A stretch of DNA of 64,000 nucleotides from the NCBI RefSeq assembly GCF_000223985.1, contig NZ_AFWV01000019.1, positions 1 to 64,000 of the forward strand, given 5' to 3'. This document shows, piece by piece, positions 5,592 to 27,983 of this stretch. The notes beneath the pieces are model-generated. The model had not been told where the DNA came from, ran no database searches, and saw only the letters and a program-made list of their open reading frames with translations. A program made the translations under genes and the position numbers. This DNA is from Thiocapsa marina 5811 (GTDB lineage Bacteria > Pseudomonadota > Gammaproteobacteria > Chromatiales > Chromatiaceae). The first letter of the stretch is position 1. Every line of letters starts with the position of its first letter.

Positions 5592-5999
5592 TCAGGACGC
5601 GGGTCGCCAAACAGGAAGGATATCGGTCTGCGAGAAATCCTCACCTTTGAACAGCAGCGGAAGTCCGCGGACCTTGGCAAGCGCGTAACTGAATAGGTCG
5701 CCGTAGTTCAAGCCGGCCGCGTGCCCACTGCCCCGACCGTAGGCGACAAAGGCCGCGAACGCGGCTTGCAGCTCGGCCTTGCCCGGCGCCACCAGCTCGA
5801 ACATCGGCAGGCGCAGCAGATCATCCAACAGCACGACCGCGCGCTCGCCCCGTCGGCCATGCACGACCATGCGGGCTTCCAACGCGGTCGGGGTACTGAT
5901 CAGTGCGCGCGGCGCTTTCTGGATGATGTCGACAAATGCCTCGCGTTCCGGCTCCCCGAAGACGATCGCCACGAGCGCCGAGGTGTCGATGACGATCAT
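5592..5999 (-). CDS. vapC: VapC-type PIN-domain toxin
   Basis: A 135-residue PIN-domain ribonuclease. The acidic pocket is visible: Asp5 in MIVIDTSALVAIV, a Glu in the ALEARMVV helix, the Asp of LNYGDLFSYALAK, and an Asp in LFKGEDFSQTDI near the C-terminus. Its ATG overlaps the stop of the upstream antitoxin by four bases (ATGA), the classic vapBC arrangement. The expected role is Mg-dependent RNA cleavage restrained by the antitoxin. The RNA target is not deducible. Confidence 0.9.
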   Translation of the reverse strand: MIVIDTSALVAIVFGEPEREAFVDIIQKAPRALISTPTALEARMVVHGRRGERAVVLLDDLLRLPMFELVAPGKAELQAAFAAFVAYGRGSGHAAGLNYGDLFSYALAKVRGLPLLFKGEDFSQTDILPVWRPAS

Positions 6000-6235
6000 T
6001 CGGGGAGTCCTGCCTCATCCCAAGGGAGAGGATCGAAGGCGTCCGCTCGGTCCGGGATGCGATCGAGCTGCGCCAGCAGCGCACGCATGCAGGCGGCTGG
6101 CTCGGCGGCGCCATCGAGCTCTCGCAGCAATTGATCGACCGCGCGCTCCACGGCAGCCGTCTTACTCAAACCGGTCACTCGGGCGAGCCGCTCGACCTTG
6201 CCGACGACGGCGGGATTGGCGATTTGCAGAGGCAT
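5996..6235 (-). CDS. vapB: VapB-type antitoxin (Rv0623-like)
   Basis: A 79-residue antitoxin starting MPLQIANPAVVGKVERLARV and continuing GLSKTAAVERAVDQLLREL, the pattern of Rv0623-type VapB antitoxins (N-terminal DNA-binding and dimerisation region). The acidic/Pro-rich C-terminus (DAFDPLPWDEAGLPE) resembles the tail that occupies the PIN active site. An in-frame open stretch extends to 6484, but its composition is unlike an antitoxin, so I place the start at 6235. It overlaps vapC by ATGA. Confidence 0.87.
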   Translation of the reverse strand: MPLQIANPAVVGKVERLARVTGLSKTAAVERAVDQLLRELDGAAEPAACMRALLAQLDRIPDRADAFDPLPWDEAGLPE

Positions 6236-6597
6236 GGAGAGACGCTCGATATTGAAATCAACACCGTCAATATAGGCATGCCTGCCGGTCATCGCAAACG
6301 GCCCGCCGATTCGGCCTTCAATCGGCTCCGGGGACCGGTCTAGCTCGGCTTTATCCTCTCGCCGAGCCCGACAGCATGACCCGTCTACCCGGGCGGACAT
6401 GCCGACGGAGCCGCACTCGGAGAGTTGGAGGACGGGCTGGAATGTCACTGAGACGGAGCCGCCGGCGCCGGCTTTGATCGACACCGAAGGCGGACCCGTT
6501 CGGGATGGTTCCTCGCGCCGCTACATACTCCCCGAGCGCAGAAGCACTTGTCCCGTCGCCCCGACCATGGCCTCCATGCCACCGCTGAGCGAGATGC
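6236..6597. other. Gap with no supported gene
   Basis: About 360 bp between vapB and the mechanosensitive channel gene. The reading frame upstream of vapB stays open but looks non-coding. A perfect 7-bp stem (GCTGAGC-GAGAT-GCTCAGC, 6584-6602) overlaps the stop codon of the channel gene. It has no T run, so it is a weak terminator candidate. Confidence 0.4.
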
Positions 6598-8373
6598 TCA
6601 GCGCTCCTCGCACGGCGGCGTAAAGAGTCCCAAGCCGCGCGGGCGGGCGGCACTGCCGTTCGCGCCGAAGTCACGCGCGACTGCCGAGAGCACTGTCGGC
6701 TCCTGCACGGGTCGCGCTTGATGCGGCTGTCCCGGCATGGTCTCCACCTCGATCGTCTGGGTCGGAAATGCGAATTCCACGCCCAATCGATCCGCGAGCC
6801 GCATGATCTCGAGGAACACGCGTTGCCTCTCGACAAGCTCCGCGGACCAGTCCGGGACCTGCAGGAAAAAGTACAACAGGACATCGAGCCCGTGAGGGCC
6901 AAAGTCGTGCATGACGACGTGAAAGTAGTCTTTGCGTGTAGCCGGGTTGGCCTTGATGATCTCTTTGATACCCTCGAGAAAGGCCTCGATCCGCTCCGGC
7001 CCGGTGTCGTAGCGAATATTCAGCTTCGTCGTGACACGGCGATAGGTCCGCTCGCCCATGTTGTCGATCGCCGCATTCACCGTGACCGAATTGGGCACCG
7101 ACAGCAGCGAATCGTAAAAGGTACGAATCCGGGTGCTGCGAAAGCCGATGTCTTCGACCGTTCCTTCGTTGTCGTTCATCTTGATCCAGTCGCCGATCCG
7201 GAAGGGTCGATCGAGCATGATCGCCAACGAGCCGAGGAGATTCGCCAGCGTCTCGCGAGCGGCCAGGGCGACCGCCAGACCGCCGACGCCGAGGCCGGTA
7301 ATGACCGAATACGCAGGCAGGCCGATGCGCTGCGCCCCGTCCACCACTAATGCAGCGATCGCGACGAACGCCAATAGCTTGAACCCGAGCCGGAGAAGTT
7401 GGCTGTCGATGCCCCGTGGACGCAAGTGCCGCGAGCGAATCACGACCTCCGGGATCTGTGTCAGGATCAAGACCGCGAGCCAGCCAAGCAGCGTGTATTC
7501 CAGGATCACGAAGAACTGCTTGTCCAGGATCAGCATGTGGCCGGTGAAGTTGACGATCTCGTTGATGAAATACTTCACACCCTGCACCAGGACGACCCCG
7601 AACAAGAGGGCCAGGATGGCCCCCCTTCGCGAGATCTGATGTTGCTCTCGACGGCGCTTATCGGCTCGCCGTCCGGCGCGATAGCCGGCCACGCCCAAAG
7701 CAAAACCAGCCATGAGCACAACGACCGCGGCGATCCATTGCCACGCCGTCTGCCCCAAGACCTGTCGCCCAAGCCAAGCCGGCAGGCCCGCGTTCCAGGA
7801 CAGGCTCAAACCGGGTCCCGGGGTGAGGCTGTAGGCGTCGTAGAGTCCGGGCGTTGCCTCTGCACGATACGGCAGATCGGAGACCCGTTCGAAAAACGAC
7901 TCTGCGCGCTCCACCGTCAAGGGGCTGAACAGCCACTCGCCGGTCCGAGTCCCTTCCTGGACCTGTGCGATGGTGATCTCGGTGTAGGGGATGCGCCATT
8001 TCAAGATCTCGTCGATTTCCACGCGCCTGGCGTCCGGGATCTCCTCGTAGGGCGGCAAACCCACGCGGTCGATGGTCTCCTTGAGCAGCAGAGCCGCCTC
8101 GAGGCCGATGTCCGCGGCAAACTCCGCCGGCACACCGCTCAGATCAAGGGTACGCCAAGCGCGGCGCAGCGGCTCGAGGGTCTCTTCCCGCGATTTCCCT
8201 GGATCCTCTGCGATCTTGTAGGCTTCCTCAAGGTTGACGATCAAGCTCCGCGCAGTCGCCTGCGGACTGGAGGTATCCGGCGGGCGAAGCGGATTGGCCA
8301 AGGGCTCGATCGCTCGAGGCGCGGCGAAGAGCGGCGCAGCCGCTAGCCACAGCAGAATCAGGGAGACCGTCAT
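6598..8373 (-). CDS. MscS-family mechanosensitive ion channel
   Basis: A 591-residue channel. The chosen start (8373) gives a proper signal peptide (MTVSLILLWLAAAPLFA) with GAGGATC upstream. A periplasmic region of about 200 residues precedes several transmembrane helices. The MscS core is clear: the pore-lining Gly/Ala helix VITGLGVGGLAVALAARETL, then LLGSLAIMLDRPFRIGDWI and the beta-domain sequence GTVEDIGFRSTRIRTF. It is a large MscS-like protein with an extra N-terminal periplasmic domain, probably acting in osmotic down-shock release from the inner membrane. It faces away from the helicase gene at 8915. Confidence 0.9.
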   Translation of the reverse strand: MTVSLILLWLAAAPLFAAPRAIEPLANPLRPPDTSSPQATARSLIVNLEEAYKIAEDPGKSREETLEPLRRAWRTLDLSGVPAEFAADIGLEAALLLKETIDRVGLPPYEEIPDARRVEIDEILKWRIPYTEITIAQVQEGTRTGEWLFSPLTVERAESFFERVSDLPYRAEATPGLYDAYSLTPGPGLSLSWNAGLPAWLGRQVLGQTAWQWIAAVVVLMAGFALGVAGYRAGRRADKRRREQHQISRRGAILALLFGVVLVQGVKYFINEIVNFTGHMLILDKQFFVILEYTLLGWLAVLILTQIPEVVIRSRHLRPRGIDSQLLRLGFKLLAFVAIAALVVDGAQRIGLPAYSVITGLGVGGLAVALAARETLANLLGSLAIMLDRPFRIGDWIKMNDNEGTVEDIGFRSTRIRTFYDSLLSVPNSVTVNAAIDNMGERTYRRVTTKLNIRYDTGPERIEAFLEGIKEIIKANPATRKDYFHVVMHDFGPHGLDVLLYFFLQVPDWSAELVERQRVFLEIMRLADRLGVEFAFPTQTIEVETMPGQPHQARPVQEPTVLSAVARDFGANGSAARPRGLGLFTPPCEER

Positions 8374-8914
8374 CGGAACCGGGATCCTCGAGCGACGGAA
8401 AAGCCTCCGGAAGCAAACGCACATAGAAGGTGCCAGAGTGACCAATGCTTCGGGGCAGAATACAGGTAATCGCCCGACGAAGATAAAAACGGCATCCGTC
8501 GCCGCTCCACGGCCTCGTCGTTCCGCCCCGCGACATACCGCGGCATCCTCCCGGTCCTTTCAGACCCCGCCGGGGCACGCAGCATCGAACATTTCCCGCT
8601 GCGCGCACTCGCCCGCTCCGGGCGGCACCTCCGTCGCAAACCATGACGCTCATCAATTCGCGCAACCCGCGCCGCGTCTACACTCAAACACGTCCTTGCG
8701 ATTTCATGGAGAACGTCCCCGACGATGGACACCGACAGCGCTCAAATCAGCGACACCACCCATCACGGCGGTCGCAGCACGCGCAGCAAGGTCGTCCGGG
8801 CCGCCGGACCCGAAGCAGCCAAGGACGAGGCCGAGTGCCCAGCCGGTCGCTATCAGGTCGGACGCGTCGTCGGCATCGGCAAACGCTGATCCCCACCATC
8901 GAGAACGGACGCTC
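8374..8914. other. Divergent intergenic region, MscS / NERD helicase
   Basis: About 540 bp between divergently transcribed genes. It must hold both promoters, but I could not assign convincing -35/-10 pairs. It contains one 54-codon open frame, listed separately. Confidence 0.4.
8725..8889 (+). CDS. Possible small protein, 54 aa, unrecognised
   Basis: An ATG-TGA frame of 54 codons beginning MDTDSAQISDTTHHGGRSTR and ending QVGRVVGIGKR. It lies 25 bp upstream of the helicase start on the same strand. It is polar and basic with no hydrophobic segment. It could be a leader or a small basic protein, or a chance frame in GC-rich DNA. There is no strong ribosome site, so this is a low-confidence call. 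Confidence 0.25.
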   Translation: MDTDSAQISDTTHHGGRSTRSKVVRAAGPEAAKDEAECPAGRYQVGRVVGIGKR

Positions 8915-10555
8915 ATGGCCAGAATCATTCCCTCCGACATCAGCCCCTTGGCGCTCGCGGGCGCGCATTCGGGAGAATTGGAGACCCTGGCGCTGCTCGA
9001 GGCGCAACTCGGCCCCGACTATGCCGTGTTCCACAGTGTCCATTGGAGCTTCAGCCAAGGCCAGGTCACCCGATTCGGCGAGATCGACTTCATCCTGGTC
9101 AACCGCGCGGGCGCCGTGCTCTGCATCGAGCAGAAGAACGGTGTCCTGAGCGAAACGCCGGACGGCCTGGTCAAGGTCTACGGTCAGCGTCGAAAGTTGG
9201 TCGGTGCGCAGATTCACCGCGCGCTGGACCAGGTCCGCGACAAGTTTCAGTGGCAGCACGGGAGCGCGTCGCCGCTCGACCTCGACTATCTGCTCTACTG
9301 CCCCGACTACCGCGTCCGCAATCTCAACGCGGCCGGCCTGGACCAAAGTCGCATCCTCGATGCCGCCGCCACCGACGGACTGGCCCGGCGGATCGAACGG
9401 ATCCTCGGCCCCGGCGAACCCGATCCCGCCCGACGCACCTTGGTCGAAGACTTCTTCTGCCAGACCTTCGAGGTCGTCCCGCAGATCCACCTCTACCGAC
9501 GGGCCCAAGAGCAACACTTCGTGCGCCACGGCGGCGGCCTCGCCGAACTGGTCCGCACCCTGGAGATGACGCCGTTTCGGGTACGCGTCTCCGGCACCGG
9601 CGGCTGCGGCAAGAGTCTGCTGGCCGGCGTGTTCGCCCGTGATCAGGTCAAGCAGGGTCGGCGTGTCCTTATGATCTGCTTCAACCGACCGCTCGCCGAT
9701 CGCCTGCAAAGCCTGCTGCCCGAGGTCCACGCCCGAACCTTCTACGGCTTTTGCGACCAGTTCCTGCGCGCACGCGGCGAGCCGCTGGACTACAAGGGCA
9801 TGAACCAACCCGGCTTCTGGAGCACCATGCAGGACCGCGTCCTCTCCGCCCCGATCCCGGACGCTTGGCGCTTCGATGTGCTCATCCTCGACGAGGGCCA
9901 AGATTTCGAGGCCGATTGGCTGGAGATCCTCAAGCTCTTCCTCACCGAGGACGCCCGCATCCTCTGGCTCGACGATCCGAATCAAAACCTGCTCGGCAAA
10001 CCGCCGGTCGATCTCCCGGGCTTCGTGCGCCTGCACTCGCGCCACAACTACCGCTCCCCCTACGGCATCGCCCGCTTCATGCGCAGCCATCTGCCCTTCG
10101 ACTTCGAGCCTGCCAACCCCCTGCCCGGGCTGGGTGTGGGCGTGCACCCCTATCGCGATGCCGACGATCAAGCCAAGCACCTGGACGCGGTCGTCGGCAA
10201 CTTGATCGGCCTCGGCTTCGCACCCGACGAGATCGTCATCCTCTCGCTGCGCGGCGTCGACCAGTCGCCGCTCTGGAAACACGACCGCATCGGGCGCCAC
10301 ACCATCCGCCGCTTCACCGGAACCTACCAACCCGACGGCGTCCAGATCTGGACCGACGGCGACATCACACTCGACAGCCTCTACCGATTCAAAGGCCAGG
10401 ACGCCCCGGCGATCATCCTGACCGATGTCGAGGATCAGAAGGACCCGGAACGCCTCGACCGATTGCTCTATTGCGGGATGGGGCGGGCGACGGTGCGGGT
10501 GGATGTGTTGGTGAAGGGGGAGAGTGGGATTGGGAAGCGGTTGGGGGGCACGTGA
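8915..10555 (+). CDS. NERD-domain superfamily 1 helicase
   Basis: A 546-residue protein starting MARIIPSDIS. Longer in-frame extensions run antisense to the MscS gene and are rejected. Residues about 15-120 form a NERD (nuclease-related) domain with PD-(D/E)xK-like residues Asp58 and Glu72-x-Lys74 in GEIDFILVNRAGAVLCIEQK. An SF1 ATPase follows: Walker A SGTGGCGKS near 226-234, Walker B LILDEGQDF near 325, and the C-terminal helicase motif SLYRFKGQDAPAIIL. NERD-helicase fusions occur in DNA repair and in mobile or defence contexts. Its stop codon lies 10 bp from the left direct repeat of the AT-rich island, so a functional link to the next two genes is possible but unproven. Confidence 0.85.
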   Translation: MARIIPSDISPLALAGAHSGELETLALLEAQLGPDYAVFHSVHWSFSQGQVTRFGEIDFILVNRAGAVLCIEQKNGVLSETPDGLVKVYGQRRKLVGAQIHRALDQVRDKFQWQHGSASPLDLDYLLYCPDYRVRNLNAAGLDQSRILDAAATDGLARRIERILGPGEPDPARRTLVEDFFCQTFEVVPQIHLYRRAQEQHFVRHGGGLAELVRTLEMTPFRVRVSGTGGCGKSLLAGVFARDQVKQGRRVLMICFNRPLADRLQSLLPEVHARTFYGFCDQFLRARGEPLDYKGMNQPGFWSTMQDRVLSAPIPDAWRFDVLILDEGQDFEADWLEILKLFLTEDARILWLDDPNQNLLGKPPVDLPGFVRLHSRHNYRSPYGIARFMRSHLPFDFEPANPLPGLGVGVHPYRDADDQAKHLDAVVGNLIGLGFAPDEIVILSLRGVDQSPLWKHDRIGRHTIRRFTGTYQPDGVQIWTDGDITLDSLYRFKGQDAPAIILTDVEDQKDPERLDRLLYCGMGRATVRVDVLVKGESGIGKRLGGT

Positions 10556-10943
10556 TGGTATTGCGCTCGATCAAAGCCTACCGAGCGGGGAAACCAACGA
10601 CTCTAAACAGACAGGGAGCCGAGGATCGGACCGCATTGTGAGCAGAGTCAGCGGGATCGCCCCCGCAAACCGCATACGGTCGTGGCCATGGGGAATGCAA
10701 AGCGACAAGAGCGACTGCTTTAGATCCATTGAAACCGACCCCTAAACTGCGCAAACAAAAAGCCAATGAATTACCTGCGACACCCGTAAAAACACTAACC
10801 ATAGCAATCAGAAAACTGACTTTTCGACGCACCGTTCGACCGATAACAACGTCCTTAAAGGCAGGAACATACATACAATATTTCGCCTCTTTAGTTGTTA
10901 TCTTGAACCCCCTATGACAATTTAAAAACCAGCGGAGTTTAGC
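10556..10943. other. Intergenic leader of the GTPase operon
   Basis: 388 bp in which composition shifts from GC-rich to AT-rich. It starts with the 11-bp direct repeat (10566-10576) and ends with GGAG (10934-10937) six bases before the GTG start of the GTPase. A 62-codon frame at 10729-10917 is AT-biased and not convincing. No promoter could be assigned with confidence. Confidence 0.4.
10566..10576 (+). repeat. Left 11-bp direct repeat bracketing the AT-rich island
   Basis: CTCGATCAAAG, identical to 14997-15007. It lies 10 bp after the helicase stop codon. The pair encloses the two-gene GTPase operon and could be a target-site duplication or attachment-site core. No integrase or transposase is present. 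Confidence 0.5.
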
Positions 10944-12983
10944 GTGAACGAATATCAGAAACTTAGCGACACAATTAACAATATTGCCGAAGAAGCAAGC
11001 AGGGCAAGCATTAAAAACTATCTTAAACGCTTTAAGGAAACTGGTCATTTCGATAAATTTGAAGAACGGTTTGCAGATTTCAAGCAAGACGTTCAACGCG
11101 CGGCTGAAGAATGTGACCGGGCAATCAATAGCCCAGTCTACGTTGGCGTTGTCGGGCATTACTCCCACGGAAAGTCTAGCCTTTTAAACGCTCTATTATC
11201 CCCACCTAAAAGCCGAGAGTTGCTACCCACCGGCGATAGCGTAGTGACTGCAATGTGTACTTTAGTTGGCTTTAAGGATGACCGCCAGGGTCATGAATTC
11301 CATGAGGTGAAATACGACGGCATTGAGTCACCAATTCCAGCAGAAGAATACCAAAGCAAAGTCTCAGGTAAGCGACCGAGCTCTTTGCAAGGCGTTCATC
11401 ATTTTCGGATCAAGCTCAATACATCCGAACTCAATCCCGGCGTCTTCCAGTCGATGGCGGAAAAAAATATCGAGTTACTTGACACGCCCGGACTAGGAGG
11501 GCCTTACTGGAAAGATGAGCAAGCACTACAGAGTTGGATCAAGGAGTTTATGCTGCTTATCGTGGCTGTAAAAGCTGACGCCATCAATAAACGCGTTGCC
11601 GATTCCGTTAATCCATTTTTGAAATACTCTACACGACCTATCATTCCAGTCGTTACATTCTGGGACCTATGGCAACAATCTGACGCATACAAGGGAATCA
11701 GCACAGAGGAAGATGCACGCCAGAAAGCCCGTGAAGACTTGATAAAGTATTTCCCCGCGATGTCGGATGCAGTTGAGGAAGGAAGGGTTACTTTCGTTTC
11801 GGCGAAAAACTATCGAGACCAGACCAATCCGTATGAAACGAATGCACGTGAATTTTATACGGAAGACTGGAATATCGACAATGTCAGGACTACGCTCACT
11901 AACTATATTAGCAGCAAAGTCATCGTTCTACAGTCGATGCGTTCGGAGCAGTCCGACCTAGAGCTCAATCGGAAAAGACGCGTTATCGAAGGGTGCAGCA
12001 ACCTCTGCTCCACCTACAACAGCCTTAACTATACGTTGAAGTCGGAGCTAGAGGCGACAAGACCAAAAGCAGCATACGAAGAAGAACTAGAAGAGGCATT
12101 TCAGAGAATTCAGGATGAACTAACTCGCGAGTATGATCGCATCATAGATAAAGCCGCTGAGACTGTCGAGGATCGCGTTGCTGCAATATCAACGACCGGA
12201 AACTTGAGTCAACAATTGAACGAGATCACAAAGGACGTCAATATAGAGACACATCGCCTAATTAAGGAAACTCTCCCCGATCGCCTTGACCGCACCCTTG
12301 AGCGCAGCGTGAAAAGAAGTATTACACGCTTCCTAGACAATGATTACCCCATTGAAAAATCCAAAATCAAACGCATGAAGCAGCTGGTCAATGACGCTTG
12401 CCGAGATCTCACCGAGGACCTTTGTAAGCCTACATCACAGAGTCCATTTAACCCTCCGCAGGGTGTAACTGATCTTGCAAAAAACGTAAGCAGCGCTTTG
12501 TTCGATGGCCTGAAAACCCTATTTACGACAAACCTGCCTTTGGCATTGTTAATACTTGCAGCGATCTTTATACTACCCGCAATAACTGGCTGGCTCAGCG
12601 GCATTTGGTTAGTCGGAGATAAACTTGCGACTGGCGTCCAGTATCTGCAATACTTTATCTTTGCAGCCGGCGTATTCACACTTTTCGCTATTAGTTGGAG
12701 CAATGTAAAACGTGCCCGAGAGATCACCGCAATGCAAGTAAAAGAAAAGGCGCGTAAACAAAATCGGCGGGCCGATATTAGTGACCGCATCAAGCCCGAT
12801 GTCGATGCCAAGCTCAAGACCTTTGAGAATGACATTCGGGAAATACTTGAAAATGAGATTAAACCACTAATTCAGTCCGGTGATGACATTTCTGAGGATC
12901 TCGATCGTTTGTTTTCGGACATAGGATCTCAGATTCGAATTATCGAAAAGGAGTGCAGCTCGATGGCTAGAGGTATCCGCTGA
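10944..12983 (+). CDS. Dynamin-like large GTPase, membrane-anchored
   Basis: A 679-residue protein with a GTG start and GGAG six bases upstream. GTPase motifs: G1 GHYSHGKS (71-78), a G2 Thr near 102, G3 DTPGLGG (180-186) and a G4-like TFWD (238-241) in place of the usual (T/N)KxD. A long helical region of about 300 residues follows. Two hydrophobic segments then appear (about 533-553 and 568-588), like the membrane paddle of bacterial dynamin-like proteins. A charged coiled-coil tail ends the protein (SDRIKPDVDAKLKTFENDI). This order matches bacterial dynamin-like proteins. Codon use is AT-biased against its neighbours, indicating transfer. It is coupled by TGATG to the next gene. The role is unknown; membrane remodelling or phage defence are possibilities. 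Confidence 0.82.
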   Translation: MNEYQKLSDTINNIAEEASRASIKNYLKRFKETGHFDKFEERFADFKQDVQRAAEECDRAINSPVYVGVVGHYSHGKSSLLNALLSPPKSRELLPTGDSVVTAMCTLVGFKDDRQGHEFHEVKYDGIESPIPAEEYQSKVSGKRPSSLQGVHHFRIKLNTSELNPGVFQSMAEKNIELLDTPGLGGPYWKDEQALQSWIKEFMLLIVAVKADAINKRVADSVNPFLKYSTRPIIPVVTFWDLWQQSDAYKGISTEEDARQKAREDLIKYFPAMSDAVEEGRVTFVSAKNYRDQTNPYETNAREFYTEDWNIDNVRTTLTNYISSKVIVLQSMRSEQSDLELNRKRRVIEGCSNLCSTYNSLNYTLKSELEATRPKAAYEEELEEAFQRIQDELTREYDRIIDKAAETVEDRVAAISTTGNLSQQLNEITKDVNIETHRLIKETLPDRLDRTLERSVKRSITRFLDNDYPIEKSKIKRMKQLVNDACRDLTEDLCKPTSQSPFNPPQGVTDLAKNVSSALFDGLKTLFTTNLPLALLILAAIFILPAITGWLSGIWLVGDKLATGVQYLQYFIFAAGVFTLFAISWSNVKRAREITAMQVKEKARKQNRRADISDRIKPDVDAKLKTFENDIREILENEIKPLIQSGDDISEDLDRLFSDIGSQIRIIEKECSSMARGIR

Positions 12984-14956
12984 TGAGACCATTAAGAGGA
13001 CTCTCTGATCATTACAATCGAGCTGCGGTCATATTGGCTAAAACCTTGCCTCAGCCAAGTCTTAGCGACGACCCCCTGATGCAATTGCTTCAGGCATTGG
13101 AGTCAGTCGAAACGGGCTCGCTTGCGCAGGATCTCGATCCACTACGAAGCTTTATCCGCTCGACCGAAAAGATTCTCGATAGTGAGTATCGATCCATTGC
13201 GAGTCGGTCAAATACGAGCTTCAGGGATCTTTGGCTTCCAATCGTTCTTCTTGGGAAAAGTTGGGCTTTGGCCGCACGATCTTTATTAGGCATTCCAGCA
13301 GATTCTTGGCAACATGTAGACAGGGTCGAATCTATCATTTTCACACCGGTCACCCAGCGCGAAGATCCACGTTTGCGCGTCAGGCTATACAATGAGGTTA
13401 ATTGTATACAAAGGAATGACTATCGAGAGTTCGAAAATTGCATAAAAATCCCTTTCGGCCTTCGTACAACATACAAAACGAAAGAAGCGAGGATAGGATT
13501 TTTAGACCAGAAGAGTCGAATCATCGAAACAGAAAAGGATGATGCTGAACGCATGCTTCGCGGCGACTTCCCGACTTGGCTTACTCTGCTTTTGAAGTGG
13601 GACGCGGTCGAGCAGATTGAGCTAAACTACCGACATGAAATCGGCGAAGATATTTGCAAACAAATCACTTCGATCGTAGCAATTCCGGATTGCCCAAGTT
13701 CCGTACGAGCTACTGCGGAGAGCGCTGAAACCTTCCTTGATAATTGCTTCGGCTGGCTCGGTTTATCGGACTCGCGAGCCAGAATCCCTGCGTCAGCCCT
13801 AATCATACTTACTAATGGCGGGGAGGAATGGTATCAACTCCTTGAAGCATACAGCCGACGGATAAGAGCGCTCCTGTATGAAGAGTGCAGCTTTCGCTCC
13901 AATTACGGTGAAGCGATTGACGCGGAAACAAACACCCCTCTGTTCTTTTCACTCATACAAAGGCATCTGATCTTTCCCCCTGGGGCTGACATTCGATTAG
14001 AGAATGAATTCAACGCACTTGGAACGCTTTTCGATTTCGGAAGCGACGGTGAAAAAGGTGTTATACAAGAGAGATTTACATGGCCCAGCACCAGTGATTT
14101 AGCTGACCTGATAAGGCACAGGATCGGCAACGTATCATTTTTGGTTGATGCGGGGGAGTCGCTTAAGCAGCATTGCGATTACCTATTAAAAAAGGCAGAC
14201 TCGCTGGATCTATCTTCGACCGACCAAACAGAACAAGATTACTCTACGGAGTGGGAGCGTGAGGTTGCGGGATCGGCGCAATCGCCTACAATTACTCCAA
14301 ATCCTACGACTGGAGACATTTTTGATCGTCTTACGGACCGACTTGCGGATTTGATCGCCAAGTCCACTCCGGAGGCTTTTGATCAGTCTTTCTCACAGGC
14401 TCAGAAAGTCGCAAACCGAGGGGTTATGCCTAGCCGCGAGAGCATGGAGCGTTCATTAAGCATGATGACCATGCTGACATCTTGCGTGTTTAGGGCAATT
14501 TTAGGCGTGTTTTCGCGCAATCTTGATATCGGCTTAGAAGTAATTCGACTTCTCAACGAACAAGGCACATATTCACCGAAGGGCACTGGCTTTCATAGCT
14601 TTAATGATGGATTTGAGGGAGACGATTTGTTTAAAGCGATGTCCATCCTATTACGCTCTGCGGTCCATGAAGAGTCTCTTAATGACCGAATTACCGCGTT
14701 CGCAGCTGCATTGTATGTTTTAGATGTTAATGGGGTCGTTCCTGAACGCGGACCGGATGGGACGTTCGACGATGAGTATTGTGCTGCAACTGCGCTTGTA
14801 GCACTTGAGGAACGGGGTTTAGTCATTCCCGAGGAAGTGTCAGCGTGGGCATTTGATTGCAAAGCGAACATCGATGCACTACTTAGCGCCGAAAAGCAAA
14901 ATCAGATTAACGCAATCATGTCAAAGCATTCACTGTTTTTGCAAAATCTGAAATAG
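12983..14956 (+). CDS. Unrecognised 657-aa partner of the dynamin-like GTPase
   Basis: I do not recognise this protein over most of its length. It begins MRPLRGLSDHYNRAAVILAK and is predicted mostly helical and soluble, with no signal peptide. Residues about 90-115 (FRDLWLPIVLLGKSWALAARSLLG) are the most hydrophobic. A polar linker (about 430-460) rich in Ser, Thr, Asn and Pro separates an N-terminal from a C-terminal half. The C-terminal half carries ALYVLDVNGVVPERGPDG followed by TFDDEYCAATALVAL, reminiscent of the YkvA/DUF1232 helical hairpin (D-x2-P-x3-G-x2-DD). Its ATG overlaps the GTPase stop by one base and it shares the same AT-rich codon use. Coupling implies joint action, perhaps as regulator or effector of the GTPase. 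Confidence 0.75.
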   Translation: MRPLRGLSDHYNRAAVILAKTLPQPSLSDDPLMQLLQALESVETGSLAQDLDPLRSFIRSTEKILDSEYRSIASRSNTSFRDLWLPIVLLGKSWALAARSLLGIPADSWQHVDRVESIIFTPVTQREDPRLRVRLYNEVNCIQRNDYREFENCIKIPFGLRTTYKTKEARIGFLDQKSRIIETEKDDAERMLRGDFPTWLTLLLKWDAVEQIELNYRHEIGEDICKQITSIVAIPDCPSSVRATAESAETFLDNCFGWLGLSDSRARIPASALIILTNGGEEWYQLLEAYSRRIRALLYEECSFRSNYGEAIDAETNTPLFFSLIQRHLIFPPGADIRLENEFNALGTLFDFGSDGEKGVIQERFTWPSTSDLADLIRHRIGNVSFLVDAGESLKQHCDYLLKKADSLDLSSTDQTEQDYSTEWEREVAGSAQSPTITPNPTTGDIFDRLTDRLADLIAKSTPEAFDQSFSQAQKVANRGVMPSRESMERSLSMMTMLTSCVFRAILGVFSRNLDIGLEVIRLLNEQGTYSPKGTGFHSFNDGFEGDDLFKAMSILLRSAVHEESLNDRITAFAAALYVLDVNGVVPERGPDGTFDDEYCAATALVALEERGLVIPEEVSAWAFDCKANIDALLSAEKQNQINAIMSKHSLFLQNLK

Positions 14957-15592
14957 GCTGAAAAAAGTAAAAAAAAGGGGTCACCATTTAGCTGACCTCG
15001 ATCAAAGGCACAACGTATTTCCTCGCACCCAAGCACGCTCGTGTCGGTCGGGAAGTGCAACATCGGTACCGCCAACGCGCCCGCGGTTCTCGTTGACAGG
15101 TCGCGGATTGACTCCGATCCGCGCCAGTCACCCTAAAAAGGGGTCAGGTTCAGTCGATCCAGATCGGCAACTCCTGCTGCTCGGCCTCTCCCAAGGCTCG
15201 GCCGCTTCCGTTTTGCGCGGGCGTTCCCGCTGGCGCAGTCCTCGACGTTGTCCGGCCACAGCTTCGATCTCGGCGCTAAACCGTACGTTTCCGATCGGTT
15301 GGTCTTGGTTCAGAACCATGCATCGATCGGCCCCTATCGAGTTGAGGTTCCGCGCGAGCCTCGGGCCTGGGACAGGGCACGCCTGCCGGCAAGATGGATG
15401 GGTGGCGCCGGCAACCGCGGGTGCGGGCGTCATGCCGCACGACCGCCCGAGCCGACCGAGCGCAATCAGGGGGACGGTTGTCGGGATGACGATCGAGGCC
15501 GAAACGGGTCTTTGTCGTTGCGTGGTCTGGCTGTCCGGGATTATAAACCGCCGGCTTTCGTTTCTTTTTTCTTCACCACAGAGAATCACGGC
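14957..15592. other. Intergenic region between the GTPase island and ppiC
   Basis: 636 bp with no supported gene. AAAAAAGGGGTCA at about 14973-14984 and AAAAAGGGGTCAGGTTC at about 15135 are two copies of a short motif that flanks repeats in many gammaproteobacteria. An open plus-strand frame (15093-15758) runs into ppiC in another phase and looks like a shadow. A T-rich patch (15558-15575) lies just upstream of the ppiC start. Confidence 0.4.
14997..15007 (+). repeat. Right 11-bp direct repeat bracketing the AT-rich island
   Basis: CTCGATCAAAG, a perfect copy of 10566-10576, 40 bp downstream of the second gene of the GTPase operon, just where the AT-rich composition ends. Confidence 0.5.
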
Positions 15593-16633
15593 ATGCACCT
15601 GTTCTACAAACTGGCAACCGCGGCCACCGTCACGCTGGCACTCGCCGGAGCGCGCGGCGTCATGGCTGCGGAGACCGTGCCCCAAGCGGCGGCAACGGCA
15701 GCTCCGCCGGCGGCTGAATCTTCGGCCACATCCGGCGACCCCGCGGATGTCGTCGTGACGATCAACGGCGTGGGCATGACGCGCGCCGAGCTGGACCGCA
15801 ACGTCGGCGCCCTCTTGGCCCAAAGTCGGTCGGCTGCGCCGCTCGACCCCGCCATGCGCGAACGCATCGAGGAGACCGCGCGGGAGAACATGATCCGCTC
15901 GGAGCTTCTGTATCAGCTCGCGAAGGATGAGACGGTCGCCGATCTCGACGAGCAGACCGATGCGCAGCTCGCTGAAATCAGGTCGCGTTTTGCCAGCGAG
16001 GAGGAATGGGAGACGACGCTCGCCCAGAAAGGCGTGACCCCGGATGCGTTGCGCGAAATCCTTAAACAGGGAATCTTGATCGATGCCTTCATCGAGAACG
16101 AGGTGGCGTCGAAGATCGAGATCACAGACGCACAGCTGAAGGCCTTCTACGACGAGAATGCCGACGCATTCAAGAAGCCGGAATCCATCCGTGCCAGCCA
16201 TATCCTGATCGGCGTGGATTCCAACGCTACGCCCGAGGAGAAGGAGAAGGCGAAGCAGAAGGCCGAGGGGTTACTGAAACAGGTGCAGTCCGGTGAAGAC
16301 TTTGCCGAGCTGGCCAAGACGGAATCGACCTGCCCGAGCGCGCCTCAAGGGGGCGATCTGGGCGAGTTCGGACGCGGTCAAATGGTCGCGCCCTTTGAAG
16401 AGGCGGCCTTCAGCCTGGAACCGGGTGATGTCAGCGAGGTGGTGGAGACCCAGTTTGGGTATCACATCATCAAGTCGACGGGCAAGAACGCGGCCGGAGC
16501 CGTGCCCTTCGAGGACATGAAGGCACAAATCGAGAAGCAGCTGAGGGCGCAAGAGCTGCAAATGCAGGTCCTCGCCAAGGTCGATGCATTCAGGCAGACG
16601 TCCGTAATCACGTTCCCGGAGCAGGTTCAGTAA
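15593..16633 (+). CDS. Periplasmic PpiC/SurA-type peptidyl-prolyl isomerase
   Basis: A 346-residue protein with a Sec signal peptide (MHLFYKLATAATVTLALAGA, cleavage near VMAAE) and an Ala-rich linker. A SurA-N-like chaperone helix region spans about 50-200 (VVVTINGVGMTRAELDRNV and following). One parvulin domain covers about 200-295: IRASHILIGVDSNATPEEK, then DFAELAKTESTCPSAPQGGD and VVETQFGYHIIKST. It should assist folding of envelope proteins. The start at 15593 is chosen because only this Met gives a signal peptide. It is monocistronic here; a CCCCCGGC-AGA-GCCGGGGG hairpin lies about 50 bp downstream. Confidence 0.9.
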   Translation: MHLFYKLATAATVTLALAGARGVMAAETVPQAAATAAPPAAESSATSGDPADVVVTINGVGMTRAELDRNVGALLAQSRSAAPLDPAMRERIEETARENMIRSELLYQLAKDETVADLDEQTDAQLAEIRSRFASEEEWETTLAQKGVTPDALREILKQGILIDAFIENEVASKIEITDAQLKAFYDENADAFKKPESIRASHILIGVDSNATPEEKEKAKQKAEGLLKQVQSGEDFAELAKTESTCPSAPQGGDLGEFGRGQMVAPFEEAAFSLEPGDVSEVVETQFGYHIIKSTGKNAAGAVPFEDMKAQIEKQLRAQELQMQVLAKVDAFRQTSVITFPEQVQ

Positions 16634-16680
16634 ACCTCCCCGGCAACGCCAGCACTCATCCAGGATGAGACGCGCGGATT

Positions 16681-16699
16681 CCCCCGGCAGAGCCGGGGG
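16681..16699 (+). terminator. Hairpin downstream of the PpiC-type isomerase gene
   Basis: Perfect 8-bp GC stem (CCCCCGGC / GCCGGGGG) with an AGA loop, 48 bp after the stop codon. It lacks a T tract, so it may protect the 3' end rather than terminate. Confidence 0.4.
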
Positions 16700-16877
16700 T
16701 GATCCGGTGTTTGGAGCCTTAGGTCACCGCAACGGGCTCTCGACGTTGCGCGGTCATCGCATGCAGGACGCATTGCTCGCGCGGCAGAGCTTCCCCCAGC
16801 CGTGCCCGATAGACGCGATCGTCCTGTGCATCGAAGGGCCGTGCTCGTAACGCGGGCCACTGCGATGACTTTGCGCT

Positions 16878-16954
16878 GGGTGGAGAAGCGGGAGCGCAGT
16901 CCACCAGCGTCGGCGCGGGGTTCGGTGGACTTCGCTCTCGCTCGTCCACCCTAC
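16878..16954. repeat. GGTGGAC...GTCCACC intergenic repeat, copy 1
   Basis: Two adjacent imperfect palindromes: GGGTGG...CCACC (16878-16905) and GGTGGACTTCGCTCTCGCTC followed by GTCCACCCTAC (16924-16954). The same words recur at 21100-21268 and 50466-50520. Confidence 0.7.
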
Positions 16955-17227
16955 CGGCTCGTCTTAATGAACGGCGTGAATCGAGGGAAGAGGCGCTGGG
17001 GTTGCGTGACCGCGGTGCGCGACGTGCAACGGCTCGCCTTCAAGATGGAGTCGGAGGCGTCTGGGCATGGGGGCAGGCTTGGCGGAAAATGCAGCTGACC
17101 GCTGCCGCTGTACTTTTTCTGTCATCTTAAAACGAGGCAGCTCCGAGGATCGTTGATTCTGCCGGGGCCGTCTCATTCCAAAACATCGTATAACGCGCCG
17201 AGCAAGGTTGAGGATATCTCGGCATTT

Positions 17228-18517
17228 TCAGCTGAACCACCCTTGGGTTGATTCGTCCCGTGCGCGAATCTTCTCGGACAGTCGGGCGCAGCGCCGATCC
17301 TTCAGCGGACCGGACGGCAGCGCGGCGGCGAGCGCTAAGGCACGGTCAAGATCGTGGGTGCGGTGCTCGTGGTACTTCGCCAGTGCCGTGCACGCATCGG
17401 CATCGCCTTCAGCAGCCAGTTGCTCCCAAATTGCAAGAGCCTGCTCCCAGTCGCCACGTCGACGATGCAGACGCGCCAAATCCAGCAAGCCGGCCGAATC
17501 CAGGTGGCGGCACCCGGACCGGAGTAGATCGAAAGCGCGATCGGATCGACCCTGCGCATGATGGTAGGCGGCCACGGCACGGATGTCGGCATCGAACGCA
17601 CCCGGATCGTCGAACACCTCGCCCAGACGCGGGATCAAGGTCGCCAGCGAGAGCAGATCCCAGCGGTTGTGACGCAGCACGCCGGCCAAAGGGGTCGTCT
17701 CGCCCGTGCGCAACCAGGCGAGCCAGGCCGCCGGGGCCTCGGAGCCCGGCAAATCATCCTTGCGCTTGAACCCCAAGAGGCGCTGCTCCACGCTCGCGAG
17801 TCGGCAATCGGGCCAGACGCGGCCGTAGGCTCGGCGCACCGGCTTCAACAGATCCAGATGCGGCAGCGTCGGAAGCGGATCGGCTTGACCGCAGAGGCGA
17901 AACCGCGTGGTGAGCAGCGGGATGTCGAAGGACAGGCCGTTGTAGCTAACGAGAAGCCCGGCGCCACTGAGTTCGGCGGCGATGGCTTCAAGATAAGCCG
18001 GCTCGGCATCGAGGCGCGTCAGGAGGTATTGGCGCAGGGTCCATCCGTCGGCTTGTGCGCGCAGCAGACCGGTCATAAAGGCCCAGGTCCCCGTGCCGCC
18101 GGCCAGGCCGCTGGTCTCGGTATCGAGACAGACCGGGGCGGCTGCTGCCGGAACCGACCGCCCTCGTTCGAGCTCGGGCTCGAGGCGCGACGGCGGACTC
18201 ACCCAGCCCGGATCGATCGACGCCTCCCACATGGCACCATCGAAGGGTCCGATCGAGACCTGACCGTGCCGCTGTCGCGCGGGGATCCGCCGCTCAAGAC
18301 AGAGCACGCCGGGCGCGATCTCGACCGCGCCGACCGCTTCGGCCAACCGGTCGGCCCCCGGTTCACCCGCGCCACCGGCCCGGGCCTGCCCGACCGACAC
18401 CCGACGAATCCGCTCGGCCAGCGAGGGTCTGTCGGTCGGCGACGACGGGGCGCTGCCCTGTCCGTCCGGGCCAGGACCCGCTCCGCGCAAGCGTTGAAGG
18501 CGGTCTTTGAGTGTCAT
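17228..18517 (-). CDS. MrfB-like (YprB) RNase H-fold exonuclease
   Basis: A 429-residue protein. Residues about 125-290 form an RNase_H_2/DnaQ-like exonuclease: VCLDTETSGLAGGTGTWAF (DxE metal site), LLVSYNGLSFDIPLLTTRF, and the late acidic motif RHNRWDLLSLATLI. The C-terminal third has TPR-like helical repeats (RSDRAFDLLRSGCRH, LARLHRRRGDWEQALAIWEQ). It is homologous in layout to Bacillus YprB/MrfB, which works with helicase MrfA in mitomycin-lesion repair. Here it sits 68 bp downstream of an MrfA-like helicase on the same strand, which supports the same role. Confidence 0.8.
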   Translation of the reverse strand: MTLKDRLQRLRGAGPGPDGQGSAPSSPTDRPSLAERIRRVSVGQARAGGAGEPGADRLAEAVGAVEIAPGVLCLERRIPARQRHGQVSIGPFDGAMWEASIDPGWVSPPSRLEPELERGRSVPAAAAPVCLDTETSGLAGGTGTWAFMTGLLRAQADGWTLRQYLLTRLDAEPAYLEAIAAELSGAGLLVSYNGLSFDIPLLTTRFRLCGQADPLPTLPHLDLLKPVRRAYGRVWPDCRLASVEQRLLGFKRKDDLPGSEAPAAWLAWLRTGETTPLAGVLRHNRWDLLSLATLIPRLGEVFDDPGAFDADIRAVAAYHHAQGRSDRAFDLLRSGCRHLDSAGLLDLARLHRRRGDWEQALAIWEQLAAEGDADACTALAKYHEHRTHDLDRALALAAALPSGPLKDRRCARLSEKIRARDESTQGWFS

Positions 18518-27647: not shown

Positions 27648-27983
27648 AGCGATCGCCGTCGCGGTCGAGATCAGCTCCCTGCGCCTCCGGCAACAGGGGA
27701 TCGTGCCGGCTCCTAAACCGCGCCAGCTCCGACAGTCATCGGAGCCGGCGCGGCCGATCCACTCCAACGAATGACGCATACCGCACCGGACGCGGTTTAG
27801 GACGATCGATCCCCGAGGCTATCAAGATCGCTCACAGGGTCTATCATCAGACGGAGATGGTCCCGGACCTGGATAACGAAAACTGCCGAGGGGCTTGGCA
27901 ATGCGGACCGTCGGGGCCGCCTTGGCCAAAGGCGGCAGCCGGACAAGGAACGCGGTCCCGACCCGCAGCTTTTCGGAGACATC
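27648..27983. other. Intergenic region before the proton ATPase
   Basis: 336 bp holding one 88-bp CTAAACCGCG element (27713-27800) and a stem GCCGCCTT-GGCCA-AAGGCGGC (27916-27936) about 45 bp upstream of the ATPase start. No T run follows the stem, so it may be a leader structure rather than a terminator. Confidence 0.5.
27713..27800. repeat. 88-bp inverted-end element, module 1
   Basis: Begins CTAAACCGCG and ends CGCGGTTTAG, exactly 88 bp. An internal hairpin is CTCCGA-CAGTCA-TCGGAG. It aligns end to end, without length change, with the reverse complement of 37113-37200. Confidence 0.85.

Follow-up and report, generated by a model that had tools for sequence, protein, structure and literature searches.

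A laterally acquired dynamin-like GTPase gene and its overlapping partner gene in Thiocapsa marina 5811, a candidate phage-defence module

A stretch of 64,000 nucleotides of Thiocapsa marina 5811 (contig NZ_AFWV01000019.1, positions 1 to 64,000), referred to in its full length as the window, carries two overlapping genes that encode a dynamin-like GTPase and a large partner protein. The pair lies in a variable block of the chromosome together with genes for an MscS-type channel, a NERD helicase, and a PPIC isomerase (Table 1). An initial annotation, made from the letters of the window, had described the two genes as a horizontally acquired island, possibly serving defence or membrane remodelling and bracketed by an 11-bp direct repeat.

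Table 1. Positions of the genes and other features discussed (window coordinates unless a genome is named)
Feature	Position	Strand	Remarks
Variable block (MscS-type channel, NERD helicase, dynamin pair, PPIC isomerase)	6303-17252		The corresponding slot in G002 and G007 lacks it
NERD and UvrD-type helicase gene	8915-10555 (start approximate)	+	Next to the pair in the window and T. roseopersicina; not adjacent in T. imhoffii
Stretch between helicase stop and GTPase start	10556-10943		G+C 0.61 (10556-10693), then 0.42 (10694-10943)
Left CTCGATCAAAG	10566-10576	+	Match judged coincidental; kept in the T. roseopersicina copy
Dynamin-like GTPase gene	10944-12983	+	679 aa; GTG start; GGAG at 10934-10937, six bases upstream of the start
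TGATG stop/start overlap of GTPase and partner genes	12981-12985	+	Translational coupling predicted; TAATG in the T. imhoffii copy
Partner gene	12983-14956	+	657 aa; no known family; P-loop motif absent
158-bp interspersed repeat	14977-15134		Ends the AT-rich segment and holds the right 11-mer
Right CTCGATCAAAG	14997-15007	+	Deviates from CCCGATCAATG, the form usual in the interspersed repeat
HEC-08- and PDC-S20-matching genes (G004)	L049 3646-4557 and 5128-6537		G+C 0.47 and 0.42

The product of the first gene scores above the cut-off of the Pfam family Dynamin_N (46.7 bits against 27) and contains the GTPase motifs GHYSHGKS at residue 71, DTPG at residue 180, and SAK at residue 286. Hydropathy analysis places two adjacent hydrophobic segments at residues 533-551 (peak 2.48) and 565-583 (1.63), both of which are helices in a poor AlphaFold model of low confidence (predicted local distance difference test, pLDDT, 45.7). 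A membrane-binding hydrophobic segment within the helical part, as looked for in the dynamin family, is present. These features bear out the description of the protein as a dynamin-like GTPase and predict that it is anchored in the membrane. For the partner, Pfam (best E 0.15), NCBIfam, PHROGs, and the PDB yielded nothing significant, and its sole PADLOC match was to the model PbeC (E 0.02), which, like a PbeC match of the GTPase (E 0.002), was taken to be probable helical noise. PDB sequence searches returned a weak match of the GTPase to IniA (E 0.021) and otherwise nothing or chance-level matches.

Both open reading frames (ORFs) and their overlap were found as initially described, and the overlap suggests translational coupling of the GTPase with its large unrecognised partner. 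The two genes occur together in 3 of the 11 Thiocapsa genomes compared, namely the genome of the window (one copy of each gene), Thiocapsa roseopersicina DSM 217 (G002), and Thiocapsa imhoffii DSM 21303 (G005), while in the other eight neither gene finds a match at E 0.001; co-occurrence as a pair, a check suggested initially, holds in three of three carriers. The overlap is maintained in T. imhoffii, as TAATG, despite protein identities of only 67% for the GTPase and 53% for the partner in alignments (52% by BLAST for the latter). Between T. imhoffii and the window, fourfold-degenerate sites differ at 137/185 and 102/135 positions in the two genes and the proteins align end to end, a combination indicative of purifying selection.

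Beyond Thiocapsa, no relative of the partner was found among plasmids, phages, viral contigs, or the genomes of the order, class, and phylum, three sets that overlap. Profile searches retrieved the window's own genome alone, both in 369 genomes of the class and in 398 of the phylum, and a single-protein search of the order retrieved 3/210 genomes, all Thiocapsa. The tblastn comparison of the partner with plasmids and phages gave no match, as did that of the T. imhoffii partner with plasmids, and two 8-residue patterns of the partner, run across the genome contigs, hit two loci, both of them already-known loci of the pair. Since short patterns and a loose first pass favour close relatives, remote relatives of the partner may exist. 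The GTPase had no plasmid match at 1e-5, its T. imhoffii orthologue gave two weak dynamin-family matches at 0.01, and a GTPase search of the class set at 1e-8 retrieved the own genome alone. Scans of viral contigs with the single protein and with a dynamin alignment detected no relatives of the GTPase; phage records were not searched with it.

The pair occupies three different sites in the three carriers, and the loci resemble each other only over the helicase and the pair, or over the pair. In T. roseopersicina, window positions 8261-14995, comprising the start of the MscS region, the NERD helicase, and the pair, are contiguous at 96.5% identity, and the flanks show no similarity to window positions 1-30000; the T. 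imhoffii stretch resembles the other two inside the pair only. Across the 11 genomes, the stretch between the helicase and the pair matches only G000 and G002. At the orthologous slot in G002 and in a further genome, G007, window position 6302 is joined to 17253 via about 448 bp, so that the MscS, helicase, pair, and PPIC genes are all absent from that slot there. The slots free of these genes thus lack a block much larger than positions 10566-15007, and these positions, proposed initially, are not supported as the unit of insertion. A site lacking just the pair was looked for without success; among the 19 relatives searched, only G002, which possesses the pair, matches the helicase over nearly its full length.

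The AT bias initially attributed to the two genes is evident in total G+C and in G+C at third codon positions (GC3): the values are 0.46 and 0.48 for the GTPase and 0.48 and 0.47 for the partner, the surroundings have about 65% G+C, and GC3 lies at 0.76-0.89 in six other genes of the window (MscS, NERD helicase, PPIC isomerase, RNase H-like, helicase, and FBP). Furthermore, the pair is unusually similar to its T. roseopersicina counterpart at silent positions. Differences at fourfold sites amount to 13/285 in the GTPase gene and 14/287 in the partner gene (about 5%), compared with 29/285 (10%) in the NERD helicase gene, 32/205 and 9/78 in the flanking genes, 98/471 and 40/166 in the core genes for a helicase and FBP (12-24% across these four genes), and 96/215 in the RNase H-like gene. 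The pair is distinguished from the two core genes with p 5e-19 (Fisher), from the two flanking genes with p 3e-6, and from the NERD helicase with p 0.003. Differences in base composition may shift silent rates, so the low divergence of the pair is evidence for recent exchange but no proof of it; silent divergence varies among its neighbours, which shows that the region recombines. The low silent divergence relative to the neighbours suggests lateral exchange between related species, and the horizontal acquisition of the pair, as initially proposed, is well supported by the sequence evidence of foreign composition, patchy presence, three different sites, and low silent divergence.

A role in defence was initially a guess, and the surroundings of the slot and of the T. 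imhoffii copy lend it some support. In the sister genome G004, the same slot contains two ORFs between a remnant of the NERD helicase gene and the PPIC gene; one matches HEC-08 (1.3e-65), and the other, for a KAP NTPase, matches PDC-S20 (8e-157), both candidate defence genes of PADLOC. They resemble the pair in being AT-rich and in occupying the same chromosomal slot but belong to unrelated protein families (KAP NTPase and DUF3644-like), and an IS1595-type transposase ORF lies near them. The T. imhoffii pair is preceded by genes for HsdM, a piece of HsdS, and an N-terminal piece of HsdR (215 aa), apparently a decayed type I restriction operon. The scan for defence families in G002 covered the helicase and the pair, and the two transposase ORFs there were scanned against Pfam.

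The pair is best interpreted as a laterally acquired module of a GTPase and its partner, the likeliest role of which would be phage defence, a proposal held with middling confidence. More tentatively, it might represent a new two-gene class of defence: one membrane-anchored dynamin would be controlled by a coupled partner that is not a dynamin and belongs to a new family, and the module would circulate among purple sulfur bacteria via defence slots. The GTPase would be anchored in the inner membrane by a hairpin of its two hydrophobic segments and would form a complex of fixed stoichiometry with the coupled and presumably mostly helical partner. The partner would replace the second dynamin of known bacterial pairs and either keep the GTPase inactive or sense infection. 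Upon phage attack, GTP-driven assembly would remodel or tether the membrane, and lysis would be delayed, as reported for Bacillus DynA, or the infected cell would be disabled. Bacterial dynamin genes are reported to occur mostly in pairs with a second dynamin gene, and their products to act mostly in such pairs (PMC6104087). A second member from an unrelated family, if real, would be another way to control a membrane-remodelling GTPase, and the pair would be a further candidate, open to testing, for the small group of dynamin defences that act on membranes.

Several observations weigh against this interpretation. The canonical G4 motif of dynamins is (T/N)KxD, and the presumed G4 position of the GTPase (238, assigned by eye) reads TFWD. 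The partner is without a recognisable domain, and its AlphaFold model is unusable (pLDDT 37). The similarity of the GTPase to the PADLOC model of the defence dynamin LeoA is little specific, as the model at 1e-10 matched 129/398 genomes of the phylum and 5/14 control genomes; in most of the matches listed across the phylum, only the GTP-binding part is covered. In the whole-genome scan with LeoA, the GTPase (1.5e-11) is slightly outscored by another ORF of its genome (1.6e-12), and in a different genome a LeoA-like gene scores strongly (5.5e-105). The defence context comprises only two neighbourhoods and one sister slot, and defence-type genes may be as frequent near other foreign DNA in these genomes. 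Moreover, the restriction genes of T. imhoffii and the NERD helicases of two sister genomes look decayed, so that these neighbours may have no part in the pair's function and simply share regions in which foreign DNA accumulates.

Among the alternatives, a non-defensive role, in which the pair would be a transferred membrane-maintenance or vesicle module concerned with envelope stress or internal photosynthetic membranes, is possible though doubtful. Thiocapsa is phototrophic and possesses internal membranes, which would suit such a role. Comparable roles are known for dynamin-like proteins: LeoABC has been linked to vesicle release (PMC4159319), and Bacillus DynA is described as acting in membrane surveillance (PMC8844932). 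However, absence from 8 of the 11 Thiocapsa genomes, foreign composition, signs of lateral exchange, and defence-type neighbours are unlike what is seen in a housekeeping gene.

It is unlikely that the NERD helicase completes a defence unit of three genes, in which it would sense or cleave nucleic acid while the dynamin pair acts at the membrane. In favour of such a unit, the helicase lies next to the pair at two distinct sites, in the window and, at the identity given above, in G002; the helicase matches the PADLOC models NERD+UvrD (3.3e-16) and RTasNERD-Hel (8.7e-15); it survives only as a remnant in G001 (L021) and G004 (L020/L049), both of which lack the pair; and a different NERD-domain protein with a topoisomerase-type zinc ribbon (L024 4960-5733), in which no helicase domain was found, is encoded about 2.7 kb from the T. 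imhoffii pair. By contrast, the composition of the helicase gene is of native type (GC3 0.85, against 0.47-0.48 in the pair), 388 bp separate it from the pair, its fourfold sites have diverged further from T. roseopersicina than those of the pair combined (27/572), and the helicase match in T. imhoffii is weak, partial, and on another contig. Both helicase remnants lack the sequence of window positions 9022-9299, apparently through one inherited deletion.

LeoA and LeoBC, known as LeoABC of enterotoxigenic Escherichia coli, constitute the Eleos defence system, which was reportedly described by Millman in 2022. Eleos is also termed a Dynamins-like defence system (PMC11811056), and LeoA is considered dependent on LeoB and LeoC (PMC4159319). 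Judged by its sequence, the Thiocapsa pair resembles LeoA/Eleos in design, as a GTPase with similarity to the LeoA profile beside an adjacent gene that is presumably co-produced; the second gene is not recognisable as a dynamin, and the GTPase gene comes first, whereas leoC and leoB are placed upstream of leoA (PMC4159319). That the pair belongs to the LeoA/LeoBC (Eleos, Dynamins) family, its second gene being too diverged for recognition, would also be compatible with defence but appears quite improbable. The LeoA model does match the GTPase over positions 103-535 of 559 (E 2.8e-19), the T. imhoffii orthologue matches both LeoA (7.5e-17) and LeoBC (1.2e-11), and a membrane hairpin is predicted by hydropathy. 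Against membership, LeoA matches of similar strength are common, and the partner contains no P-loop and does not match LeoBC at E up to 1. A profile alignment of the partner with the GTPase has a probability of 0.4% (from shallow profiles), and a decayed dynamin was discarded as an explanation of the partner. Because a second dynamin of the LeoBC type was looked for and not found, the pair is not filed under LeoA/Eleos.

Two other dynamin systems invite comparison. DynA of Bacillus subtilis is likewise a bacterial dynamin for which phage protection has been reported, with a delay of phage lysis and the formation of membrane clusters (PMC8844932), but it consists of two fused dynamins (PMC6104087), and the Thiocapsa GTPase attains 25.8 bits with the NCBIfam DynA model, the cut-off of which is 1600. 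DLP1 and DLP2 of Campylobacter share with the pair the arrangement of two genes in one operon and are described as acting jointly at the membrane (PMC6104087); both are dynamins, whereas one Thiocapsa member is not recognisably so. Among the best matches in the open-access literature on LeoA, Eleos, dynamin defence, and PDC-S20/HEC-08, no title dealt with the pair described here, and no paper was found on Thiocapsa and dynamin.

The 11-bp direct repeat was initially read as an insertion footprint that coincides with both composition boundaries. The window does contain exactly two copies of CTCGATCAAAG at the places described, where shuffled windows lead one to expect 0.04 and none of 100 shuffles reached two. 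The agreement with the boundaries is not exact, since the composition change points fit best at 10694 and 15021, which puts the left copy some 120 bases beyond the step. The right copy lies inside the 158-bp interspersed repeat, for which 13 other distinct copies were compared in the genome stretches examined, a part of the matches listed. At the place of the 11-mer, 12 of these 13 carry CCCGATCAATG, one carries ATTGATCAATG, and none carries CTCGATCAAAG. The window copy differs from the common form at two bases, one of these states being present in one other copy, so that two changes gave rise to its match with the left 11-mer. Some shared 11-mer is, moreover, easily obtained with such freedom of placement: at random window positions 4431 bases apart, one was found in 248/4000 trials when 150 bases on either side were considered, in 674/4000 with 250 bases, and in 1896/4000 with 500 bases. 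The 11-bp repeat is judged to be a coincidence and no insertion footprint.

A discrete mobile element with the 11-bp repeat as its target-site duplication is accordingly hardly credible, for all that the two copies lie near the composition steps: the intact site with a single CTCGATCAAAG that it predicts did not appear, as no CTCGATCAAAG occurs in seven stretches around the slot from six related genomes, and the two ORFs between the copies match no recombinase family (transposase or integrase). An interspersed repeat can thus by accident create a convincing direct repeat where composition changes. The similarity to T. roseopersicina ends at window position 14995, 19 bases into the 158-bp repeat and beside two IS3-like transposase ORFs (so labelled from their Pfam domains). 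This repeat has many matches across other Thiocapsa genomes, and four same-strand pairs of copies lie 0.8-5 kb apart. An Rfam scan of window positions 6000-18000 gave no match, and no excess of promoter- or terminator-like sites was found.

Further observations concern the remainder of the window. Positions 5592-6484, at the left edge of the variable block, encode a PIN-domain protein and an Rv0623-like factor, which we take, by family, to be a VapBC-like toxin-antitoxin pair. Another interspersed repeat, at 27714-27809, has four matches within 4.2 kb of stretch L058 of genome G010. Finally, the RNase H-like gene (17228-18517) differs at 42-45% of fourfold sites from its counterparts in G001, G002, and G007 but at 12% from that in G004, whereas the adjoining helicase gene differs at 21-25% from all four, a pattern for which allele replacement of the RNase H-like gene is the likely explanation.

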